The translations under genes and the position numbers were made by a program. DNA of 53,152 bases, taken from NCBI GenBank assembly GCA_018302105.1, contig JAGWAD010000010.1, forward strand, positions 1 through 53,152, in the 5' to 3' direction. Positions 1,688 through 39,283 of this stretch are shown piece by piece. The stretch's first letter is position 1; the number at the start of each line of letters is the position of its first letter. A model generated the notes under the pieces. That model was not told the origin of the DNA, searched no databases, and saw only the letters and a list, made by a program, of their open reading frames with translations. Source of the DNA: Candidatus Woesearchaeota archaeon (GTDB lineage: Archaea > Nanobdellota > Nanobdellia > SCGC-AAA011-G17 > GW2011-AR18).

Positions 1688-3193
1688 TTATATAAACCTA
1701 TTTTTTCTAAATTTTTCTTTCAAACTTGGTTTTTTGAAAGACAAAAATATGAGTGCAATTAATACTAATGTTATTATTAAAGCAATTTTCAAGTATTTTG
1801 AATAATGATATTTGGAAGTTACAAAAAATTCCGAGGTTGCTAAAGCAGTTTCATCATTATAGTGCAATTCTGCTTCAATAAAATAAGAGCCAGCTTCTAT
1901 ATCATCTGGCAGAATAATAGTTTTTAAGTATTCATATTGTGTTGCAACAGAAAGATAATCTTCTTCTGCAATTATGTCTTTGCCATCTTTTATCCTATAA
2001 AGAATTGTAATATTAGTTTCTACAGCCCCAAAATTATGAATATTGACTTTGAATGTTAGATTGCTTCCAGCAGTAATTTCTAAATATTCTTCAGGCACAG
2101 CTATCTTTATATCAAATAATAGCTTATCAGGAAATTTAACAGGCGTTTTAGGGCTATCTTTTATTTCTGGCTTTTCAGGTGTGCGATTATTTAACATTTC
2201 TAATGGTATTGTTGTCTCATTTAGTGTCAAGCCATTTAAGATTATTTTTATATTCAAGATTCCCTCTTCTGCTACAAGGTCAAATTTAATAAGTTCGATA
2301 ATCACAATATTATTTGTTATAGTAAATTCAAACAATGGCAATGTTGAACTTTGGTTATTTAATGTTGCCATCACGCTAACATTTTCAGTTGTTTCCATAG
2401 GGGGCAGACCAAGCTCTATTGTGAAATTTATTTCTCCTGCCCTTCTTGCTGCATTACCTACAACAGGATTTTCTGCATCAGGCACTTTGAATTTATTCCT
2501 TACACTTATTTCTGTTATATTCTCTGCAATTATTGTATCACCATCAATTATTCTTGCAGTTAAATTAAATAGTCCTGAAGCATTAGGAGCAAATATATTG
2601 AACTGTCTTGCATTTATTTCCAAATAAGTTAAGTTATACCAGCTTGCATTATCAATGATTATAATTGAATTTTTGTCTGCAAATTCTCCAATTAGTCTTG
2701 AACTACTCTGTCCTGATAAAATCAATTTTACAATGCTTGAATTTGGCATTGGACTATTGATATTAAATGAAACATTTTCATCTATGACTGCTTGCGATTC
2801 ATATACTGCAAGGCCTGTCAGGCTTGATGGAGGAAGCAAGAATAATCCAAATCCGAAAACAACCAATAACAAACTTATTGCCAATATCTGACTTAATCTT
2901 CTTGATTTATTCTCTTCTTTTTCTACCTGCCAATTACATGAAATAAGCTGATTTTGATAATCTGCAATACAACGATCATAATAGTCTATCCATTCTTCAA
3001 CAGTCCTTCCTTTTAATATATTACTTGATTTTGAAGTATATTCTTCCCAAGAAATTTCATTATTCTTATATCTGGCTGCAAGATTTTCTGAATAGCTAAT
3101 TATCTTCTGCTTGAATTCCTGGACTAATTTTATATTACGGATTATTGCCAGCTTCCTGCTTTCCAGATTCCTTATCTTATTCTTACTCAGCAT
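1688..3193 (-). CDS. Two-TM envelope protein with large extracytoplasmic beta domains
   Basis: Residues 1-100 are charged and helical (probably coiled coil, cytoplasmic). A hydrophobic segment follows (LAISLLLVVFGFGLFLLPP), then the motif SSLTGLAVYE, which I associate with membrane proteins of Woesearchaeota-like archaea. About 330 residues of Ile/Thr/Asn-rich beta sequence with NXS/T sites follow, resembling CARDB/Ig-like segments (NLTFKVNIHNFGAVETNITI). A C-terminal TM (IALIITLVLIALIFLSF) ends in a basic tail. The likely topology has both termini inside and a large outside domain. It starts 11 bases inside the upstream HTH gene, so translation is probably coupled. Function unknown: a surface scaffold or sensor. 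Confidence 0.7.
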   Translation of the reverse strand: MLSKNKIRNLESRKLAIIRNIKLVQEFKQKIISYSENLAARYKNNEISWEEYTSKSSNILKGRTVEEWIDYYDRCIADYQNQLISCNWQVEKEENKSRRLSQILAISLLLVVFGFGLFLLPPSSLTGLAVYESQAVIDENVSFNINSPMPNSSIVKLILSGQSSSRLIGEFADKNSIIIIDNASWYNLTYLEINARQFNIFAPNASGLFNLTARIIDGDTIIAENITEISVRNKFKVPDAENPVVGNAARRAGEINFTIELGLPPMETTENVSVMATLNNQSSTLPLFEFTITNNIVIIELIKFDLVAEEGILNIKIILNGLTLNETTIPLEMLNNRTPEKPEIKDSPKTPVKFPDKLLFDIKIAVPEEYLEITAGSNLTFKVNIHNFGAVETNITILYRIKDGKDIIAEEDYLSVATQYEYLKTIILPDDIEAGSYFIEAELHYNDETALATSEFFVTSKYHYSKYLKIALIITLVLIALIFLSFKKPSLKEKFRKNRFI

Positions 3194-3713
3194 TTTTTTT
3201 CTTAGCCCTCTGATAGACAGTCCAGACTGTTCTCTTATCCCTATTCAGCAAAACAGCTACCTGACTATAATTCAAAGAAAATTTTTCTTTTAGATACACA
3301 ACTATAGACTCTAGTGCAGACAATTTTTGATTGGAGAAAATTTTTATTGGAACTAAAATATCTGTCTTAATATTCTTGAATAATTTTGGATATTTTTTCT
3401 TAGAATCAGAATAAATGTGCCATACATTTCTTTCATCCCTTGAAATTAATTTTGAAATCTCTCTTAAAGAATAATTTTTGTTTTCTTTTAGAAATTTAGC
3501 AACTGCCTCTAATGGCGTTAATTCTACTGTAAAAATTGAAACTGGAGCAGTTTCTCCCATCTCCTGTTTTAAGAATTCTTCTGCTGGAACATTGTATTTT
3601 TCTGCTAAAGGCTGCAGAAGCTTTCTGGCTTTTTTTATTAACTCTCTTTCTTTTTTTGATAATTTGGAATATTTATTCTTAGGACTAACTGCTTCTGAAT
3701 ATGGATCATTCAT
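3183..3713 (-). CDS. Tandem helix-turn-helix protein, likely local regulator
   Basis: The protein contains two clear copies of one module. Copy 1 (about residues 66-108) reads LTPLEAVAKFLKE...SLREISKLISRDERNVWHIY. Copy 2 (about 131-171) reads LSALESIVVYLKE...NYSQVAVLLNRDKRTVWTVYQRA. Each has the S/N-x-x-x-(I/V)-x-x-L-(I/L)-x-R-D-x-R-(N/T)-V-W pattern of a DNA-binding HTH with a conserved recognition helix. The basic N-terminal 50 residues are unrelated. It overlaps the downstream envelope gene by 11 bases. A 21-bp direct tandem repeat sits just upstream of its TATA box, so two HTH copies facing two DNA copies suggests autoregulation (inference). Confidence 0.7.
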   Translation of the reverse strand: MNDPYSEAVSPKNKYSKLSKKERELIKKARKLLQPLAEKYNVPAEEFLKQEMGETAPVSIFTVELTPLEAVAKFLKENKNYSLREISKLISRDERNVWHIYSDSKKKYPKLFKNIKTDILVPIKIFSNQKLSALESIVVYLKEKFSLNYSQVAVLLNRDKRTVWTVYQRAKKKNAE

Positions 3714-6325: not shown

Positions 6326-6780
6326 GATAATTTTTTAACCATCCTGTATTTTACTATTTTAAATCCCCATTTTTTATATAAATCAACTGCTGGATTTTTA
6401 ATATTTACATCAAGCTCTAATTTTGTATATTTTCTTTTCTTTAATTCTTGCATAAAATAGTTTCTTAAACCAGAAGCAATGCCTTGACTCCTGAATTCTT
6501 TTAAAACAAATAAATCTGATATATAACCTGTCTTTGAATTTCTTAATATTCCTTCTAAATAACCAACCAACTTATTATTGATAAATGCCATATAAAATAA
6601 CTCTTTTTTTATATCTTCAAGCATATATTCTTTTTTCAATTGTTTTTTAGTTTTTTTGACAAATGGTTCGTATGCAATTTCTTCGTATTCTCTTTCAAAT
6701 TTCTTATATAAATTATAAAACGCTTTAAAATCAGATTTTTGTGCTTTTCTTATAAATGGCTTAACCAAAGTATTTTTCAT
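6316..6780 (-). CDS. GNAT family N-acetyltransferase
   Basis: Residues 7-150 form a single GNAT domain. FIRKAQKSDFKAFYNLYKKF is the first beta-alpha unit, MAFINNKLVGYLEG the beta2-beta3 hairpin, ISDLFVLKEFRSQGIASGL motif A with the acetyl-CoA pyrophosphate loop (RSQGIASG, fitting Q/R-x-x-G-x-G/A), and KLELDVNIKNPAVDLYKKWGF motif B. It transfers an acetyl group from acetyl-CoA to an unknown amine. The N-terminus overlaps the upstream hypothetical gene by 20 bases, and its end overlaps the broken helical-repeat gene by 10, so these form a tight minus-strand operon. The substrate cannot be inferred. Confidence 0.85.
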   Translation of the reverse strand: MKNTLVKPFIRKAQKSDFKAFYNLYKKFEREYEEIAYEPFVKKTKKQLKKEYMLEDIKKELFYMAFINNKLVGYLEGILRNSKTGYISDLFVLKEFRSQGIASGLRNYFMQELKKRKYTKLELDVNIKNPAVDLYKKWGFKIVKYRMVKKLSWK

Positions 6781-7228
6781 CTTCTTCTTTTAGATCACTT
6801 TCCCAGGATTTTTTTATTATTGATATTATTTCAAGCATTGATTTTTTCAAACTAGGCCATTCTTTATATAATTTTTTTATATAACCTGCGTCTTCAGCAT
6901 CATTAGGATTTGTATCCAAAAGCAAAGCCAATCTGTCAAATACCATCATTTTTTTATGAAGTGTTGTTAATTCCTTTCTTTTTTCTTCATCAAAAAAACT
7001 TCCTTCATATGCTAATAAATGACTTTGGCTTGGAAATATTATATTCTCAACTATTCTTAAAAACCAAGACATCTTATCAAACATTCTTCTTCTTATATTT
7101 CTTAAAAGAAAATTACTTTTTTCTATATTAAATTCAAATTCATTATTTAAGGCTTCAAAATCTGGAAGCTTGTATTTTTTACTAATTGACTCATATTCTT
7201 TTTTTAGATTAAATTCTTCTTTAGGCAT
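6761..7228 (-). CDS. Conserved-looking helical protein of unknown function
   Basis: A 155-residue, mostly alpha-helical, soluble protein without signal peptide or TM segments. The N-terminal third is charged; the centre (IRRRMFDKMSWFLRIVENIIF) is amphipathic; DTNPNDAEDAGYIKKLY looks like a linker; the tail is acidic. I recognise no family. It is the first gene of the operon with the GNAT acetyltransferase, overlapping it by 20 bases, so it could supply or bind the acetyl acceptor (inference). A TATA-like TTTATAAAA lies at about 7249-7257, roughly 25 bases before the ATG, giving a near-leaderless transcript. Confidence 0.6.
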   Translation of the reverse strand: MPKEEFNLKKEYESISKKYKLPDFEALNNEFEFNIEKSNFLLRNIRRRMFDKMSWFLRIVENIIFPSQSHLLAYEGSFFDEEKRKELTTLHKKMMVFDRLALLLDTNPNDAEDAGYIKKLYKEWPSLKKSMLEIISIIKKSWESDLKEEDEKYFG

Positions 7229-7263: not shown

Positions 7264-7332
7264 TGCCTGGGCCTCAGCCGTTCTTCAATCTGCTAATTAA
7301 AGCAAAGGTTCCGCTAAAATCATCGGCCCAAG
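7264..7332 (-). ncRNA. Candidate C/D-box-like (k-turn) small RNA
   Basis: On the minus strand the 69-nt segment begins GCTTGGGCC and ends GGCCCAGGC, a 9-bp terminal stem with one G-U pair. Just inside it lie GATGA (7319-7323), the core of a C box, and CUGA (7273-7276), a D box, giving the layout of an archaeal C/D guide RNA that folds a kink-turn for L7Ae. The bases before the D box (TTGAAGAACGG) would be the guide. The C box deviates from RUGAUGA at its first two positions and I find no convincing D'/C' pair, so this is a candidate only. Confidence 0.4.
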
Positions 7333-7386: not shown

Positions 7387-7447
7387 AGCCTCTGGCGGGA
7401 ATTGAACCCACGATCTCTTCCTATTTGGATAAATACCAAGGAAGTGC
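7387..7447 (-). tRNA. 3' part of a tRNA-Thr(GGU) with intron; 5' part missing
   Basis: Reading the minus strand: anticodon stem CTTCC (7440-7444) pairs with GGAAG; loop TTGGTA gives anticodon GGU (7435-7437); an 11-nt insert TTTATCCAAAT sits at the canonical 37/38 intron site; variable loop AGATC; T-arm GTGGG-TTCAATT-CCCGC; acceptor 3' strand CAGAGGC and discriminator U (7387), which fits archaeal tRNA-Thr. The matching 5' acceptor strand (GCCTCTG) and a D-arm are absent upstream, where the DnaA-like gene ends 20 bases away. It is either a remnant or attachment-site copy left by an integrated element, or the 3' half of a split tRNA. Confidence 0.6.
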
Positions 7448-7463
7448 AAAATCTAATTGTTTT

Positions 7464-8021
7464 TTAAGTGTTTTGGGAATTGTTATTATATAAAGAAGAG
7501 TATTCTATACCTAATTCATCGCATATGTGTTTAATTGCATTTATTATTGTAGAATGATCCTTGCCTCCAAGAATTTTTCCAATTTCTGGAAGAGATATAT
7601 GAAATCTAGTTTTTAATGTGTAACATGCTTCACGATATGCTCTTTCAACTTTTGGGTTATTTCCAGTTATTCTTCTTTTATTTAATTCTTTTCTCTTTAT
7701 ATTGTATAAATTGGATAAATCTTGCAGATATTCACTTGGTGTTATTTTGTTTAGGATTTCATTAGGGTTTAATTTCATGAATTTAGTATCATATTTAATC
7801 TTAAAATCTTCATGAATTTCAATTTCTTTCCCATTAGCAATATTTCCATATCCTAAAATAAATCTTTCATTTAATGTATTGAGTTCTTGTTTTATCTCTT
7901 CCCTATATTCAACAAGGTCTTGAAAATTTTCTCTTAGTTCTTCATCATTTAATTTTTTTATTAAAGTAACTGCTCCAGAATGCCTTAAATTTCTTAATCT
8001 GTCAACTAAGCTTTTTGTCAT
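7464..8021 (-). CDS. Protein with bacterial DnaA domain IV (DNA-binding) at C-terminus
   Basis: The C-terminal 65 residues (about 118-180) read REACYTLKTRFHISLPEIGKI then LGGKDHSTIINAIKHI. This is the helix-turn-helix and signature of bacterial DnaA domain IV, where SxPEIG and GGxDHST recognise the DnaA box. The N-terminal 115 residues are charged, helical and unrelated to the DnaA AAA+ domain: there is no Walker A or B. So it is a stand-alone DnaA-type DNA binder with a novel N-terminus. This is unexpected in an archaeon using Orc1/Cdc6 (22620). It lies beside the truncated tRNA, which suggests arrival on a mobile element. The role could be a replication or transcription regulator of that element. 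Confidence 0.75.
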   Translation of the reverse strand: MTKSLVDRLRNLRHSGAVTLIKKLNDEELRENFQDLVEYREEIKQELNTLNERFILGYGNIANGKEIEIHEDFKIKYDTKFMKLNPNEILNKITPSEYLQDLSNLYNIKRKELNKRRITGNNPKVERAYREACYTLKTRFHISLPEIGKILGGKDHSTIINAIKHICDELGIEYSSLYNNNSQNT

Positions 8022-8149
8022 AAAATGTAAGTCTTAGAAAATTATAAAAGGTTTACTTAAGCTTAATTATTCAATAAATTGATATTAAAACTGATATAAT
8101 TTTAGTTTCTATAGCTTAAAAAGATATTGCATTTTCTATAAACTCTTTA

Positions 8150-14604: not shown

Positions 14605-17199
14605 TTATTTAACTAATTCCACATCATGAGGATAACTTTCCTTAATAGATGCCTGTGTCATTCTTACAAATTCTGCTTTTTCCCAAAATTCTTTTATGTT
14701 ATGTGCACCAGTATAACTCATTCCAGATCTTAAACCTGCTAAAAATGGTTTAATTACTTCTTCAACACTTCCTGAATAAGGCACCATTGCTTCTACTCCT
14801 TCTGGATTATATTCTTCATCCACTTTTTCATTATTTCTTTCATTTCTTGTCATATTTGCACCAAATGATGCACTTCCTCTATAAATTTTATATTTTTTAC
14901 CATTTCTCATTATTGCAATTCCTGGACTTTCATCTGTTCCTGCTAATGATCTTGAACGCATTACTGTAGATGCACCTGCAGCAACTGCTTTAGCAAAATT
15001 TCCTGCAATTCCTCCAATACCACCATCAGCCATTATTGGAATTCCAAGTTCATGGCCAACTCTTGAACAATTTAATAATGCGGAAAATTGAGGATAGCCT
15101 GCTCCTGCAACTAATCTTGTAACACAAATTGAATTATGTACTATTGCATTGTTTGCTATAAAACTATGAGTGGGACAATCAACCTCTAAATCATAAACCA
15201 TTACTTCCTCTCCTATATCCTTATTTTCTAATATTTTAGCAAGCTGATAATCTTTTGTCAACCTTTTTTCACCAGTTGTTATAATCCTAGAGATAAATCC
15301 TGGTTTAATATTTTCTAGTTTAGTTCCTTTCAAATTACCCATTGACCTTCTTTCTTTTTCACAATTTGGGAATACATCTGTCAATAAATAACAAATAATT
15401 CCAAATAACTCAATAATCCTTTTAGAACTATTATTTAAAGTTCTTCTACCATAGTCTTCTTCATAACCATCACTATCAATTAATCCATCACAGATTCCTT
15501 TTAAGTACTCTTTATTATTAATTAAATATTTCTCTGGTAAAAATTTATTATGTTTCTTTCCAAATCCTTGTAAGAAATCTGCTAAAGGTTTATAGAAAAA
15601 CCTTACTTCGATTGTATTTCTCTTTGTATAAACTATTTTTGATTCTTTCTTGGATATATTATACATACATTTTGAGATTTTTTCTGCAATTTCAAGTTCA
15701 TCTAGACCCAATGACCACCTAACTGATCCAACATGAGAATTATTCTTCTTGTTTACACCTTTATGTGCAGTTCCATCACCTAAAAATGTGCCAAATATAT
15801 AACCTAATTTATATGATGGTTTAAGCACTAGATCTTCTTCATATTCTATTCCTGATCTAGTATTACCACCACTACGTTTATTTAATGATATTTCAAAGTA
15901 ATCTTCCAACTCAAAGTTTATATTCTTAGGCATCAATAAGACATCTTGTTCTATATCTTTTACTTCCTTCCACTTATATTTAGACATTTTAGGAACTGTT
16001 TTACTTTGAACTTCAAGCAATTTAGCATAACCTCTTGAATGAATAGTTTCAGTTGAAACACTATTTAAATCTCCAACCCAATATTTGTGATCTGGTGTTA
16101 CATAAGTAGATTGGTGAAATATTGAACTTCTTAATTTTATTACTTTTTTAATTCCTGTGCAAAATGATTTTTTTACTTTAACAGCCATTCCATCTTTGTT
16201 TATTATTTTTTCACCAGATTTAATTTCTTCTATGTTTTTGTAAGTTCCATTTGACATAAGGATGCGTGTTCCTGCTGCAAAACAACCAGAACCAATGCCT
16301 GTCTTAACACAATCAGCACCTGCTTTTATCAAATCAAAAGTTGCTTCTTCAGTTGCTACATTACCAGCTATAACTTCAATATCAGAAAATTTATCTTTTA
16401 CTGTTTTTAATGCGTTTATTGCTAATTCTGAATGGCCATGAGCAATATCAATACATAAAACATTACAGCCTGCATTAACTAATGATTCTGCTCTTTCCAT
16501 ATAATCACCTTTAATACCTATTGCAGCTCCGACAATTAATTTCCCTTTGTTGTCTTTTAGTGTTAATGGATAAAGTTCTTTTCTTAACAAATCTTTTGCT
16601 GTTATCAATCCTTTTAATAAACCTTTTTTATCTAATAATGGAAGTTTTTCTATTCTGTTATCTTTCATTATTTCTTTTGCTTTTTCTATATCAATGCCTT
16701 GTTCTGCAGTAATTGCTTTTATCTTCGGAGTCATATGTTCTGAAATTGGTTTTAATAAATTGTCTTCAAACATCATATCTCTTCTAGTGAATATCCCTTC
16801 AAATCTTCCTACATTGTCTGTTATTAATAATCCATTAATTCCAAATTCATCCATAAAATTTTTAGCATCTTTTAAAGAATGTTCTGGAGTTAATGTATAT
16901 GGATTTTCTATTACAATTGATTCTGCTCTTTTGACTTTTAGAACTTCATTTACCTGTTCTTTTATTGGGGTATACCTATGAATGATTCCTATTCCTCCCA
17001 AGCGAGCCATTGCAATCGCCATACGACTTTCTGTTACTGTGTCCATATTTCCAGAGACCATTGGTATGTTTAATTTTATTTTAGGAGTAAGATTTGTTGA
17101 TATATCCACTAATTTTCTTGAAGAAATATCTGAATATTTAGGTATTAGAAGAACATCTTCGTATGTTAAACCTTCTTTAATATTTGCTTCATCAACCAC
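14605..17199 (-). CDS. guaB: IMP dehydrogenase precursor with an intein
   Basis: Oxidises IMP to XMP with NAD, the first step to GMP. The extein (480 residues) has an N-terminal TIM-barrel start (LTYEDVLLIPKYSDI, MVSGNMDTVTE), a CBS pair at about 95-210, and the second barrel half (VLCIDIAHGHS, AGNVATEEA, VKTGIGSG, then SICVTR, IMADGGI, RGSASFGA, VPYSG). The active-site loop G-S-G/S-I-C is split by an in-frame intein of residues 306-689, leaving the catalytic Cys at 692 (SICVTR). After splicing the loop becomes GIGSGSICVTR. The enzyme cannot work until the intein leaves. It is monocistronic, with the MNT promoter downstream. Confidence 0.92.
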   Translation of the reverse strand: MVDEANIKEGLTYEDVLLIPKYSDISSRKLVDISTNLTPKIKLNIPMVSGNMDTVTESRMAIAMARLGGIGIIHRYTPIKEQVNEVLKVKRAESIVIENPYTLTPEHSLKDAKNFMDEFGINGLLITDNVGRFEGIFTRRDMMFEDNLLKPISEHMTPKIKAITAEQGIDIEKAKEIMKDNRIEKLPLLDKKGLLKGLITAKDLLRKELYPLTLKDNKGKLIVGAAIGIKGDYMERAESLVNAGCNVLCIDIAHGHSELAINALKTVKDKFSDIEVIAGNVATEEATFDLIKAGADCVKTGIGSGCFAAGTRILMSNGTYKNIEEIKSGEKIINKDGMAVKVKKSFCTGIKKVIKLRSSIFHQSTYVTPDHKYWVGDLNSVSTETIHSRGYAKLLEVQSKTVPKMSKYKWKEVKDIEQDVLLMPKNINFELEDYFEISLNKRSGGNTRSGIEYEEDLVLKPSYKLGYIFGTFLGDGTAHKGVNKKNNSHVGSVRWSLGLDELEIAEKISKCMYNISKKESKIVYTKRNTIEVRFFYKPLADFLQGFGKKHNKFLPEKYLINNKEYLKGICDGLIDSDGYEEDYGRRTLNNSSKRIIELFGIICYLLTDVFPNCEKERRSMGNLKGTKLENIKPGFISRIITTGEKRLTKDYQLAKILENKDIGEEVMVYDLEVDCPTHSFIANNAIVHNSICVTRLVAGAGYPQFSALLNCSRVGHELGIPIMADGGIGGIAGNFAKAVAAGASTVMRSRSLAGTDESPGIAIMRNGKKYKIYRGSASFGANMTRNERNNEKVDEEYNPEGVEAMVPYSGSVEEVIKPFLAGLRSGMSYTGAHNIKEFWEKAEFVRMTQASIKESYPHDVELVK
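15133..16284 (-). mobile_element. Intein with LAGLIDADG homing endonuclease in guaB
   Basis: 384 residues from C306 (CFAAGTRILMSNG, block A) to N689 (FIANNAIVHN, block G), followed by +1 Ser of the extein. Block B is TYVTPDHKYWV (T-x-x-H). Block F is VMVYDLEVDCPTHSF. Between them are two LAGLIDADG helices: LGYIFGTFLGDGTAH (about 465-479) and LKGICDGLIDSDGYEED (about 567-582), each with its acidic residue, so the homing endonuclease may be active. Splicing residues Cys1, penultimate His, Asn and Ser+1 are all present. The site is the catalytic loop of the host enzyme, a highly conserved target as homing elements favour. Confidence 0.9.
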
Positions 17200-22619: not shown

Positions 22620-23690
22620 ATGCCTGACTTATTCAAAGACATATTAAGTGCTGAAGAATCAATTTTTCTTAATCCTCAATTCTTAGATTATGATTATATA
22701 CCTAAAATGATAATGTACAGGGAAAATGAACAGCAATATATTGCAACTGCTATAAAACCTCTATTACAAGGAAGAAATGGAAAAAATTTACTAATAAAGG
22801 GCGGACCGGGAATTGGCAAAACTGCTGGTGTAAAACATGTGTTAAAAGAACTTGAAGAAGAATTTGGAAATGAAGTCTATTGCATTTATATAAACTGCTG
22901 GAAAAAAGATACAACTTTCAAAATAATATTGGAAATTTGTTTACAACTAAAATATAAATGGATTCAAAATAAAAATTCTGACCAATTGTTAAGTGAAATA
23001 TGTGAAATACTTAATGAAAAAGCTGCGGTCATAGTCTTGGATGAAATTGACAAATTAGAAGATGATGGAATAATTTATTCATTATTAGAAGATTTGAAAA
23101 GGAAAACTTTAATATTAATAACTAATAGAGAAGATTTTCTTGTAACTTTAGATGATAGGATTAGATCTAGATTGACACCTGATGTATTAGATTTTCAATC
23201 TTATAATATGAATGAAACTGAAGGAATATTGAAACAAAGATTAGAATATGTTTTTGTTGCAAATACTTTTGATAATTCTGCTTTTTTAAGAATAGCTGAA
23301 AAAACTTTTGAAGTTAAAGATATTAGATCTGGTTTATTTTTAATGAAAGAATCTGGAGAAATTGCTGAATCAAAAAGTCTAAGAAAAATTAATATTGCAG
23401 AAGCTGAACAAGCAATTTCAAAACTTGAAGAATTTAAATTAAAAAAGGAAGATGTATTTGAAAATGAAGATAATGAATTAATAGAATTGATTAAAAATAA
23501 CTCTGGAAAGACAATGACTGAATTATTTGATATATATAAAGAAAAAGAAGGAAAAAGTTATAAAACGCTACAGAGAAAATTAAAATATTTAGAGAAATCT
23601 GGATTGATATTGTTAAAAGAAAATAATAAAGGCTCTGGAAGAATTTTTACTGTTGAATATAATAACAAAACTTTAAATGAATTTTCTTAA
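22620..23690 (+). CDS. cdc6: Orc1/Cdc6-family replication initiator ATPase
   Basis: AAA+ protein that marks origins and helps load MCM. YIPKMIMYRENEQQYI is the usual Cdc6 lead-in (h-P-x-x-h-x-x-R-E). Walker A is GGPGIGKTAG (61-70), Walker B VIVLDEIDKL with D141/E142, sensor 1 ILITNRE, and sensor 2 DIRSGLFLMKESGEIAES. The C-terminal region (about 285-350) is a winged helix (MTELFDIYKEKEGKSYKTLQRKL...GLILLKENNKGSG). At 356 residues it is somewhat short but intact. The following 230 bases are very AT-rich and end in iterons, so an origin may lie next to it. Confidence 0.85.
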   Translation: MPDLFKDILSAEESIFLNPQFLDYDYIPKMIMYRENEQQYIATAIKPLLQGRNGKNLLIKGGPGIGKTAGVKHVLKELEEEFGNEVYCIYINCWKKDTTFKIILEICLQLKYKWIQNKNSDQLLSEICEILNEKAAVIVLDEIDKLEDDGIIYSLLEDLKRKTLILITNREDFLVTLDDRIRSRLTPDVLDFQSYNMNETEGILKQRLEYVFVANTFDNSAFLRIAEKTFEVKDIRSGLFLMKESGEIAESKSLRKINIAEAEQAISKLEEFKLKKEDVFENEDNELIELIKNNSGKTMTELFDIYKEKEGKSYKTLQRKLKYLEKSGLILLKENNKGSGRIFTVEYNNKTLNEFS

Positions 23691-38728: not shown

Positions 38729-39283
38729 ATGGAACTTGGAGATTTAGTTGGTGTTAGAAAAGCAGAAAACAGATTTGATGCTAGTTTAGTAAGTAAGTTA
38801 GGAATACATGCCAGATTTGAAGATTTGCCAAAGTTAGAACAGGCTAAAAATGAATTTAAAAATTATCTGATTGACCATACATTGGCTGAAAATGGCTATA
38901 ATGTTTCAGAAACTGCAAGAACATTGGGAATTGACAGAAAAACTATTCAGAGAAGAATTACAAAAAATAATTATTCTAAATCTATTAAATTTTATACAGG
39001 AAAAGAGGCTGTTAAAGATGCAATTTATAGTGTATTAAATAAATACCTGCCTGAAACACAAGCAGATAAAAACTTATTAGAAAATAAAGCTACAGAATTC
39101 TCTAAATTATTTGAGGGATATAAATTATCTTTAGACACTGCAACAAAAGTATTTGAATCTTACCTTGTGAATGTTGCTATTGAAATTACAAAAGACAAGA
39201 AAGAAGCAGCAGAAAGATTAGGTGTGAGTGAAAGAACAGTTGAAAGAAAATTAAATTCTGGAAATCTATATAGAAATAATTAA
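38729..39283 (+). CDS. DNA-binding protein with two Fis-type HTH motifs
   Basis: 184 residues with two Fis-like helix-turn-helices: NVSETARTLGIDRKTIQRRI (about 60-79) and KKEAAERLGVSERTVERKLN (about 157-176), each preceded by a long helix (FKNYLIDHTLAENGY and FESYLVNVAIEITKD). The duplication implies a protein that binds two half-sites by itself. TATA-like CTTAAAAAG lies about 25 bases before the ATG, so leaderless. It is divergent from the AAA/rSAM operon, with repeated palindromes between, and is followed by a DUF2267 gene. Confidence 0.8.
   Translation: MELGDLVGVRKAENRFDASLVSKLGIHARFEDLPKLEQAKNEFKNYLIDHTLAENGYNVSETARTLGIDRKTIQRRITKNNYSKSIKFYTGKEAVKDAIYSVLNKYLPETQADKNLLENKATEFSKLFEGYKLSLDTATKVFESYLVNVAIEITKDKKEAAERLGVSERTVERKLNSGNLYRNN

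Follow-up and report, generated by a model that had tools for sequence, protein, structure and literature searches.

Here, we describe an archaeal protein of 185 aa whose C-terminal 85 residues, as judged from sequence and structural model, are a DnaA domain IV with largely kept base-contacting residues, and which, rather than starting replication, probably serves as a DNA-binding regulator of borrowed origin. In our preferred reading, to which we assign a probability of roughly one half, it is a stand-alone DnaA-IV protein of the phage or plasmid style, which was acquired laterally, is now resident in the genome and acts as a DNA-binding regulator. We infer the regulatory role by elimination, with other free-standing helix-turn-helix (HTH) domains as an analogy. 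The gene lies on a contig of a Candidatus Woesearchaeota archaeon, of which the whole stretch of 53,152 nucleotides was analysed (in the following, the window; Table 1).

Table 1. Features of the window and DnaA-IV-like proteins of related DPANN archaea.
Feature	Position	Strand	Basis or remark
Stand-alone DnaA-IV protein, 185 aa	7464..8021	(-)	Helical N-terminal extension and C-terminal DnaA domain IV, without AAA+
Mostly helical N-terminal extension (residues 1-85) with a long helix at 26-62	7767..8021	(-)	Low-confidence model
DnaA domain IV, about residues 90-175	7497..7754	(-)	PF08299 match, model, Foldseek
KRR, residues 115-117, basic minor-groove loop	7671..7679	(-)	Aligned with E. coli K397-R398-R399, pairwise
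Helix-turn-helix SLPEIGKILGGKDHST, residues 143-158	7548..7595	(-)	Corresponds to E. coli DnaA 421-436, 1J1V alignment
TATA-like box TTTTATAATT, 19-28 bp upstream of ATG	8040..8049	(-)	Read from sequence
tRNA-Thr(GGU) 3' half: anticodon arm with intron, T arm, acceptor 3' strand	7388..7444	(-)	Relatives' alignment
Archaeal-type initiator of the Orc1/Cdc6 family, the genome's own	22620..23690	(+)	NF001624, TIGR02928, Cdc6_lid
DnaA-IV-like proteins of DPANN relatives	G008 L015 8733-10098; G001 L014 7907-8755; G137 L016 9492-9848		

The C-terminal part of the protein is a DnaA domain IV

The original prediction had taken the motifs SLPEIG and GGKDHST (residues 143–148 and 152–158) as marks of DnaA domain IV, and a search with the Pfam profile PF08299 (Bac_DnaA_C), which it had proposed as a check, supports this assignment: residues 103–166 match with an E-value of 6.9e-10 and 39.3 bits, above the curated cut-off of 31.5 bits, and the ORF is the only match (n = 1) in the 1.15-Mb, 98%-complete genome. 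The NCBIfam model of DnaA, TIGR00362, aligns residues 74–169 with profile positions 327–419 of 437 at 45 bits, far short of its equivalog cut-off of 343.9 bits. As this match is confined to the last quarter of the profile, the domain starts at about residue 90, with no recognisable DnaA before it. No Pfam or NCBIfam family for the AAA+ ATPase domain III matches the ORF, and its absence, likewise predicted, is thus borne out. The protein shares the domain IV fold and the DNA-contacting residues with bacterial DnaA (TIGR00362; 1J1V, 8BTG, 3PVP) but is without domains I–III, the lack of which would leave it without ATPase activity, filament formation and helicase loading; at the level of sequence, no part of it is recognisable as serving ATP binding or helicase loading.

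The structural model agrees with this assignment. AlphaFold2, given 14 aligned rows of viral DnaA-IV proteins as input since the single-sequence fold was too poor, gave a pLDDT >90 for most of residues 90–175. Searching with the modelled protein in Foldseek, we found that the best 12 solved structures were all DnaA, including 1J1V (E. coli), 8BTG (B. subtilis) and 3PVP (M. tuberculosis), each with a probability of 1.00 and E-values of 1e-3 to 7e-3, as well as DnaA of A. aeolicus. In addition, a profile of the 14-row alignment found 1J1V at an E-value of 1e-22.

In E. coli DnaA, the minor groove is read by R399 and the major groove by the helix 434–451 (PMC5742627). In the alignment with 1J1V, E. 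coli P423, D433, H434 and T436 are identical in the 185-aa protein and T435 is replaced by Ser, so that the kept contacts are, in its own numbering, KRR, P145, D155, H156, S157 and T158. The KRR motif is followed by an insertion of 3–4 residues, and the residues aligned with R401 and R407 differ in this alignment. With these contacts kept, the domain looks capable of binding DNA.

The architecture is known from phages and plasmids

The N-terminus, given as 115 residues in the original prediction, is rather about 88 aa long, as the domain begins at about residue 90. Structure prediction, which had also been proposed for this part, yielded a helical model, but at low confidence (pLDDT about 48–73). 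Compared with Pfam and NCBIfam profiles, the extension matched nothing above a curated cut-off, and no phage family gave an E-value better than 0.02.

Stand-alone proteins of this kind are encoded by Rhizobium phage RHph_N28_2 (QIG70462.1), Synechococcus phage Ssp-JY42 (XAI96985.1) and a Devosia plasmid (WP_236900001.1), and a Methylocapsa plasmid carries one whose gene directly precedes parB. The IMG/VR loci found with phage and plasmid DnaA-IV queries contain ORFs of the same kind of about 100–230 aa, and dozens of BFVD entries (Caudovirales) of 76–290 aa are named "DnaA C-terminal". The annotated phage and plasmid genes have nuclease, methylase, parB or hypothetical genes as neighbours. Like the 185-aa protein, these proteins are short (about 75–290 aa overall), have domain IV at the C-terminus and contain no AAA+ domain; in contrast to them, it is encoded on an archaeal chromosome with Orc1/Cdc6, has an N-terminus of its own and carries the insertion in the basic loop. 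The identity of its domain to bacterial DnaA and to the phage proteins is similar (about 20–37%). Since the N-termini of the phage and plasmid proteins are unlike across groups, it is usual for such a protein to have an N-terminus without relatives. The fusion had originally been considered new, but as phages and plasmids commonly encode proteins that have domain IV only, joined to N-termini of unrelated kinds, the architecture as such is not; the unusual point here is the archaeal host.

Reuse of a DnaA-IV-like DNA-binding module outside DnaA is also described for the TnpA-REP transposases of subclass 2.1, some of which have a Bac_DnaA_C-like C-terminal tail (PMC6006769). These published fusions raise the option that the protein is the detached C-terminus of such a REP-associated HUH transposase. 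In contrast to TnpA-REP, however, its N-terminus has no match to the HUH nuclease family Y1_Tnp in Pfam, and REP-type inverted repeats were not recognised beside the gene, which renders this origin, already disfavoured, highly improbable.

Orc1/Cdc6 is the expected initiator of the host

The Orc1/Cdc6 family gene lies 14.6 kb from the DnaA-IV gene and matches NF001624 with 184 bits and TIGR02928 with 162 bits, both below the strict cut-offs, as well as Cdc6_lid in Pfam, in line with the earlier statement that the genome uses Cdc6. As judged from ORF translations, the same contig encodes RadA, TFB and PolB, the latter with 57% identity to a gene on a Ca. Woesearchaeota contig. As the genome contains no second PF08299 match, there is no full DnaA.

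The original prediction had further suggested a search for DnaA boxes, which revealed no enrichment: pattern counts of the canonical box TTATNCACA gave 1 observed vs. 3.55 expected in the window and 68 vs. 54 for a reversed-pattern control genome-wide. The densest trio of boxes (contig C22, 52.0–52.6 kb, chance probability ~0.03) was rejected as an origin cluster, as it falls within a cysS-like ORF and another coding ORF. The lack of an AAA+ domain, the cell's own Orc1/Cdc6 and the absence of box enrichment together argue against DnaA-type origin firing, and Orc1/Cdc6, not the DnaA-IV protein, is expected to serve as chromosomal replication initiator. The target site of the protein, if any, has consequently drifted or is rare.

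Alternatively, as the original prediction had proposed, the boxes recognised could be those of a bacterial partner or virus, with the protein acting as anti-DnaA occluder, immunity factor or sensor. DPANN archaea live touching other cells and viruses, the residues contacting the DnaA box are kept, and the own genome is not enriched in such boxes, all of which would fit. However, by eye the protein has no secretion signal, no defence context was recognised, and most known hosts of DPANN are archaea and, to our knowledge, without DnaA. A role of this type therefore appears quite unlikely.

DnaA-IV proteins occur sporadically among related archaea

No homologue of the 185-aa protein was found in the 102 other genomes of its order, leaving it a singleton among 103, and peptide-pattern scans with the single protein recognised no relatives in GTDB contigs or IMG/VR. 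Any PF08299 match was present in seven of 371 sampled genomes of the phylum, plus G001 among the closest relatives. The distribution is thus sporadic (non-vertical), in support of the original prediction.

Several of the matches in the phylum sit on contaminant or viral-looking contigs. The G186 match (L021, contig C43) is a full bacterial DnaA amid YidC, MnmE and GidA-like genes, by their translations, and was regarded as contaminant, as was that of G171 on a bacterial-looking contig; the matches of G207 (L019 and L020; contigs C16 and C47) lie on phage-like contigs and were set aside as viral, and the G081 match, MarR-like by its translation, was discarded as false. Counts of archaeal DnaA domains are thus inflated by contigs of bacterial or phage-like character, such as those of G186 and G207, that were binned with related archaeal genomes.

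Three archaeal cases are credible: G008 with three units in two neighbouring genes, G001 with two units and G137 with a single one. Like the 185-aa protein, they belong to the same phylum and match PF08299 without AAA+. The proteins of G008 and G001 have an unusual architecture of repeated units of ~130 aa without AAA+, and in G008 a single-unit gene lies beside a two-unit gene. Unlike the 185-aa protein, these tandem proteins consist of two or three units with a common extra N-terminal helix segment, and the DPANN proteins are nearer to one another than to the 185-aa protein. The latter scored 44.3 bits with a profile built from viral DnaA-IV-only proteins and 30.5 bits with one built from the tandem proteins of DPANN, and it contributed to neither profile. 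Owing to the lower score with the DPANN profile, the gene looks separately acquired, with 65–85 residues being too short to fix a tree. Our literature search yielded no study of domain IV of DnaA among DPANN archaea.

The gene lies next to a broken tRNA gene

Nineteen bp past the stop codon of the DnaA-IV gene lies the 3' half of a tRNA-Thr gene; the locus lacks the 5' strand of its acceptor and its D arm and has AT-rich sequence in their place. The tRNA-Thr(GGU) gene is intact in four relatives: in G006, G002 and G008 directly upstream of the orthologue of the gene at 6761–7228 of the window, and in G003 2 kb from this orthologue. Three pattern searches found the 5' half nowhere in the assembly, where the 3' half occurs only this once. 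The broken gene may mark the place of an integration or a misjoin, or it may be part of a split tRNA; a break within an intron could have produced the latter, given that G002 carries an additional intron at the corresponding position of the tRNA. Together with the four intact copies, the break suggests that the DnaA-IV gene arrived with an insertion or rearrangement. For the ABC exporter upstream of the DnaA-IV gene, the full-length relatives in nine family genomes are only 27–30% identical, so the stretch beside the DnaA-IV gene is accessory, with the broken tRNA gene as its right edge.

tRNA genes are usual landing places of mobile elements. The main rival to our preferred reading regards the protein as a replication or copy-number protein (a helper of the initiator or a binder of the iteron type) encoded by a mobile element that became integrated at tRNA-Thr, in which case the broken tRNA would be the attachment site and the DnaA-IV gene the remnant of a replication module. 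The proximity of the gene to the tRNA half and the relatives with an intact gene fit this idea, as do its singleton status in the order, the adjoining exporter with best matches of only ~30% over its length in the nine family genomes, and the nuclease, methylase or helicase genes adjoining phage DnaA-IV-only genes or the parB following the Methylocapsa one. However, the tRNA-flanked block holds no recognisable gene for an integrase, relaxase, Rep or capsid protein, and the assembly contains no recognisable second element boundary or attachment site and no intact tRNA-Thr copy. Around the gene, no iteron-like direct repeats or attachment repeats stood out convincingly from the AT-rich background. 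The codon usage is native, and a rearrangement or misjoin, or a tRNA encoded in split form, could also explain the missing 5' half. Overall, we consider this reading possible but unlikely.

The possibility of contamination, or of a contig misjoined at the broken tRNA, has likewise to be weighed. The G186 and G207 matches on bacterial or phage-like contigs illustrate the former, and the tRNA break is a natural suspect join point for the latter. Yet archaeal genes flank the ORF on either side within its 53-kb contig, it resembles its neighbours in GC, GC3 and codon usage (z -0.37, a typical value for the window), and the estimated contamination of the genome is 0.45%; the chance of such an artefact is therefore small. 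The TATA-like box is a plausible archaeal promoter for a leaderless transcript, its spacing being presumably suitable by what is generally held for archaeal promoters. Along with the native codon usage and GC content, this box indicates a settled gene and argues for a living, expressed one.

Several further features of the locus and the genome were observed. An element resembling a C/D-box sRNA (window 7266–7332, minus strand; GATGAT ... CTGA within GGGCC/GGCCC ends) is conserved beside the same gene in G006 (L047, about 1507–1590). Using the Rfam tRNA model at E<=1e-3, only 12 tRNAs were detected, although the genome is 98% complete, and several of them carry one or more introns; the tRNA genes of this genome may thus be heavily interrupted or split. 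Moreover, the window encodes a protein with two Fis-type HTH_8 domains and no AAA+ (38729–39283, plus strand), a protein with two HTH domains in tandem, the second of which resembles sigma-70 region 4 (29 bits; 3183–3713, minus strand), and, by its translation, an IMP dehydrogenase interrupted by a putative intein (CFAAGTRIL ... VHNS) with a LAGLIDADG-like stretch (14605–17199, minus strand).

Proposed mode of action and implications

Our preferred reading, a laterally acquired and now resident regulator, draws on the PF08299 match, the confident model of domain IV, for which DnaA DNA-binding domains were the sole strong matches among solved structures, the kept contacts and a layout and size similar to those of the phage proteins, as well as on the higher score with the viral profile, the singleton status, the presence of Orc1/Cdc6 without a full DnaA, and the native codon usage with the TATA-like box. 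The HTH_8 protein of the same window, as another bacterial regulatory HTH lacking the usual AAA+ partner, adds to this. Counted against it are the lack of enrichment of canonical DnaA boxes and the low confidence of the N-terminal helix.

Mechanistically, domain IV could bind one or a few specific short DNA sites via its helix-turn-helix and basic loop, and the modelled, low-confidence helix of residues 26–62 might join subunits to a dimer or oligomer. The bound protein would then block or tune a promoter or the origin of an element, as repressor or site-occluding regulator. Putative targets are its own gene, a neighbouring gene of the accessory ABC exporter block, or the acquired element.

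DnaA domain IV counts as a hallmark of bacteria, and its presence in archaea is not expected. A living copy in a DPANN genome means that this module crosses domains as a free DNA-binding unit, with carriers that were probably phage-like or plasmid-like. A further-reaching idea, which we regard as doubtful, is that DPANN archaea repeatedly recruited domain IV, as a single unit here and in tandem in relatives, as a DNA-binding regulator of replication or of an integrated replicon in cells relying on Orc1/Cdc6. If true, a bacterial origin-recognition module would be working in an archaeal replication or copy-control circuit. Should the protein bind DnaA-box-like sites, it would offer a clean test of a bacterial origin-recognition domain regulating DNA in an archaeal cell.
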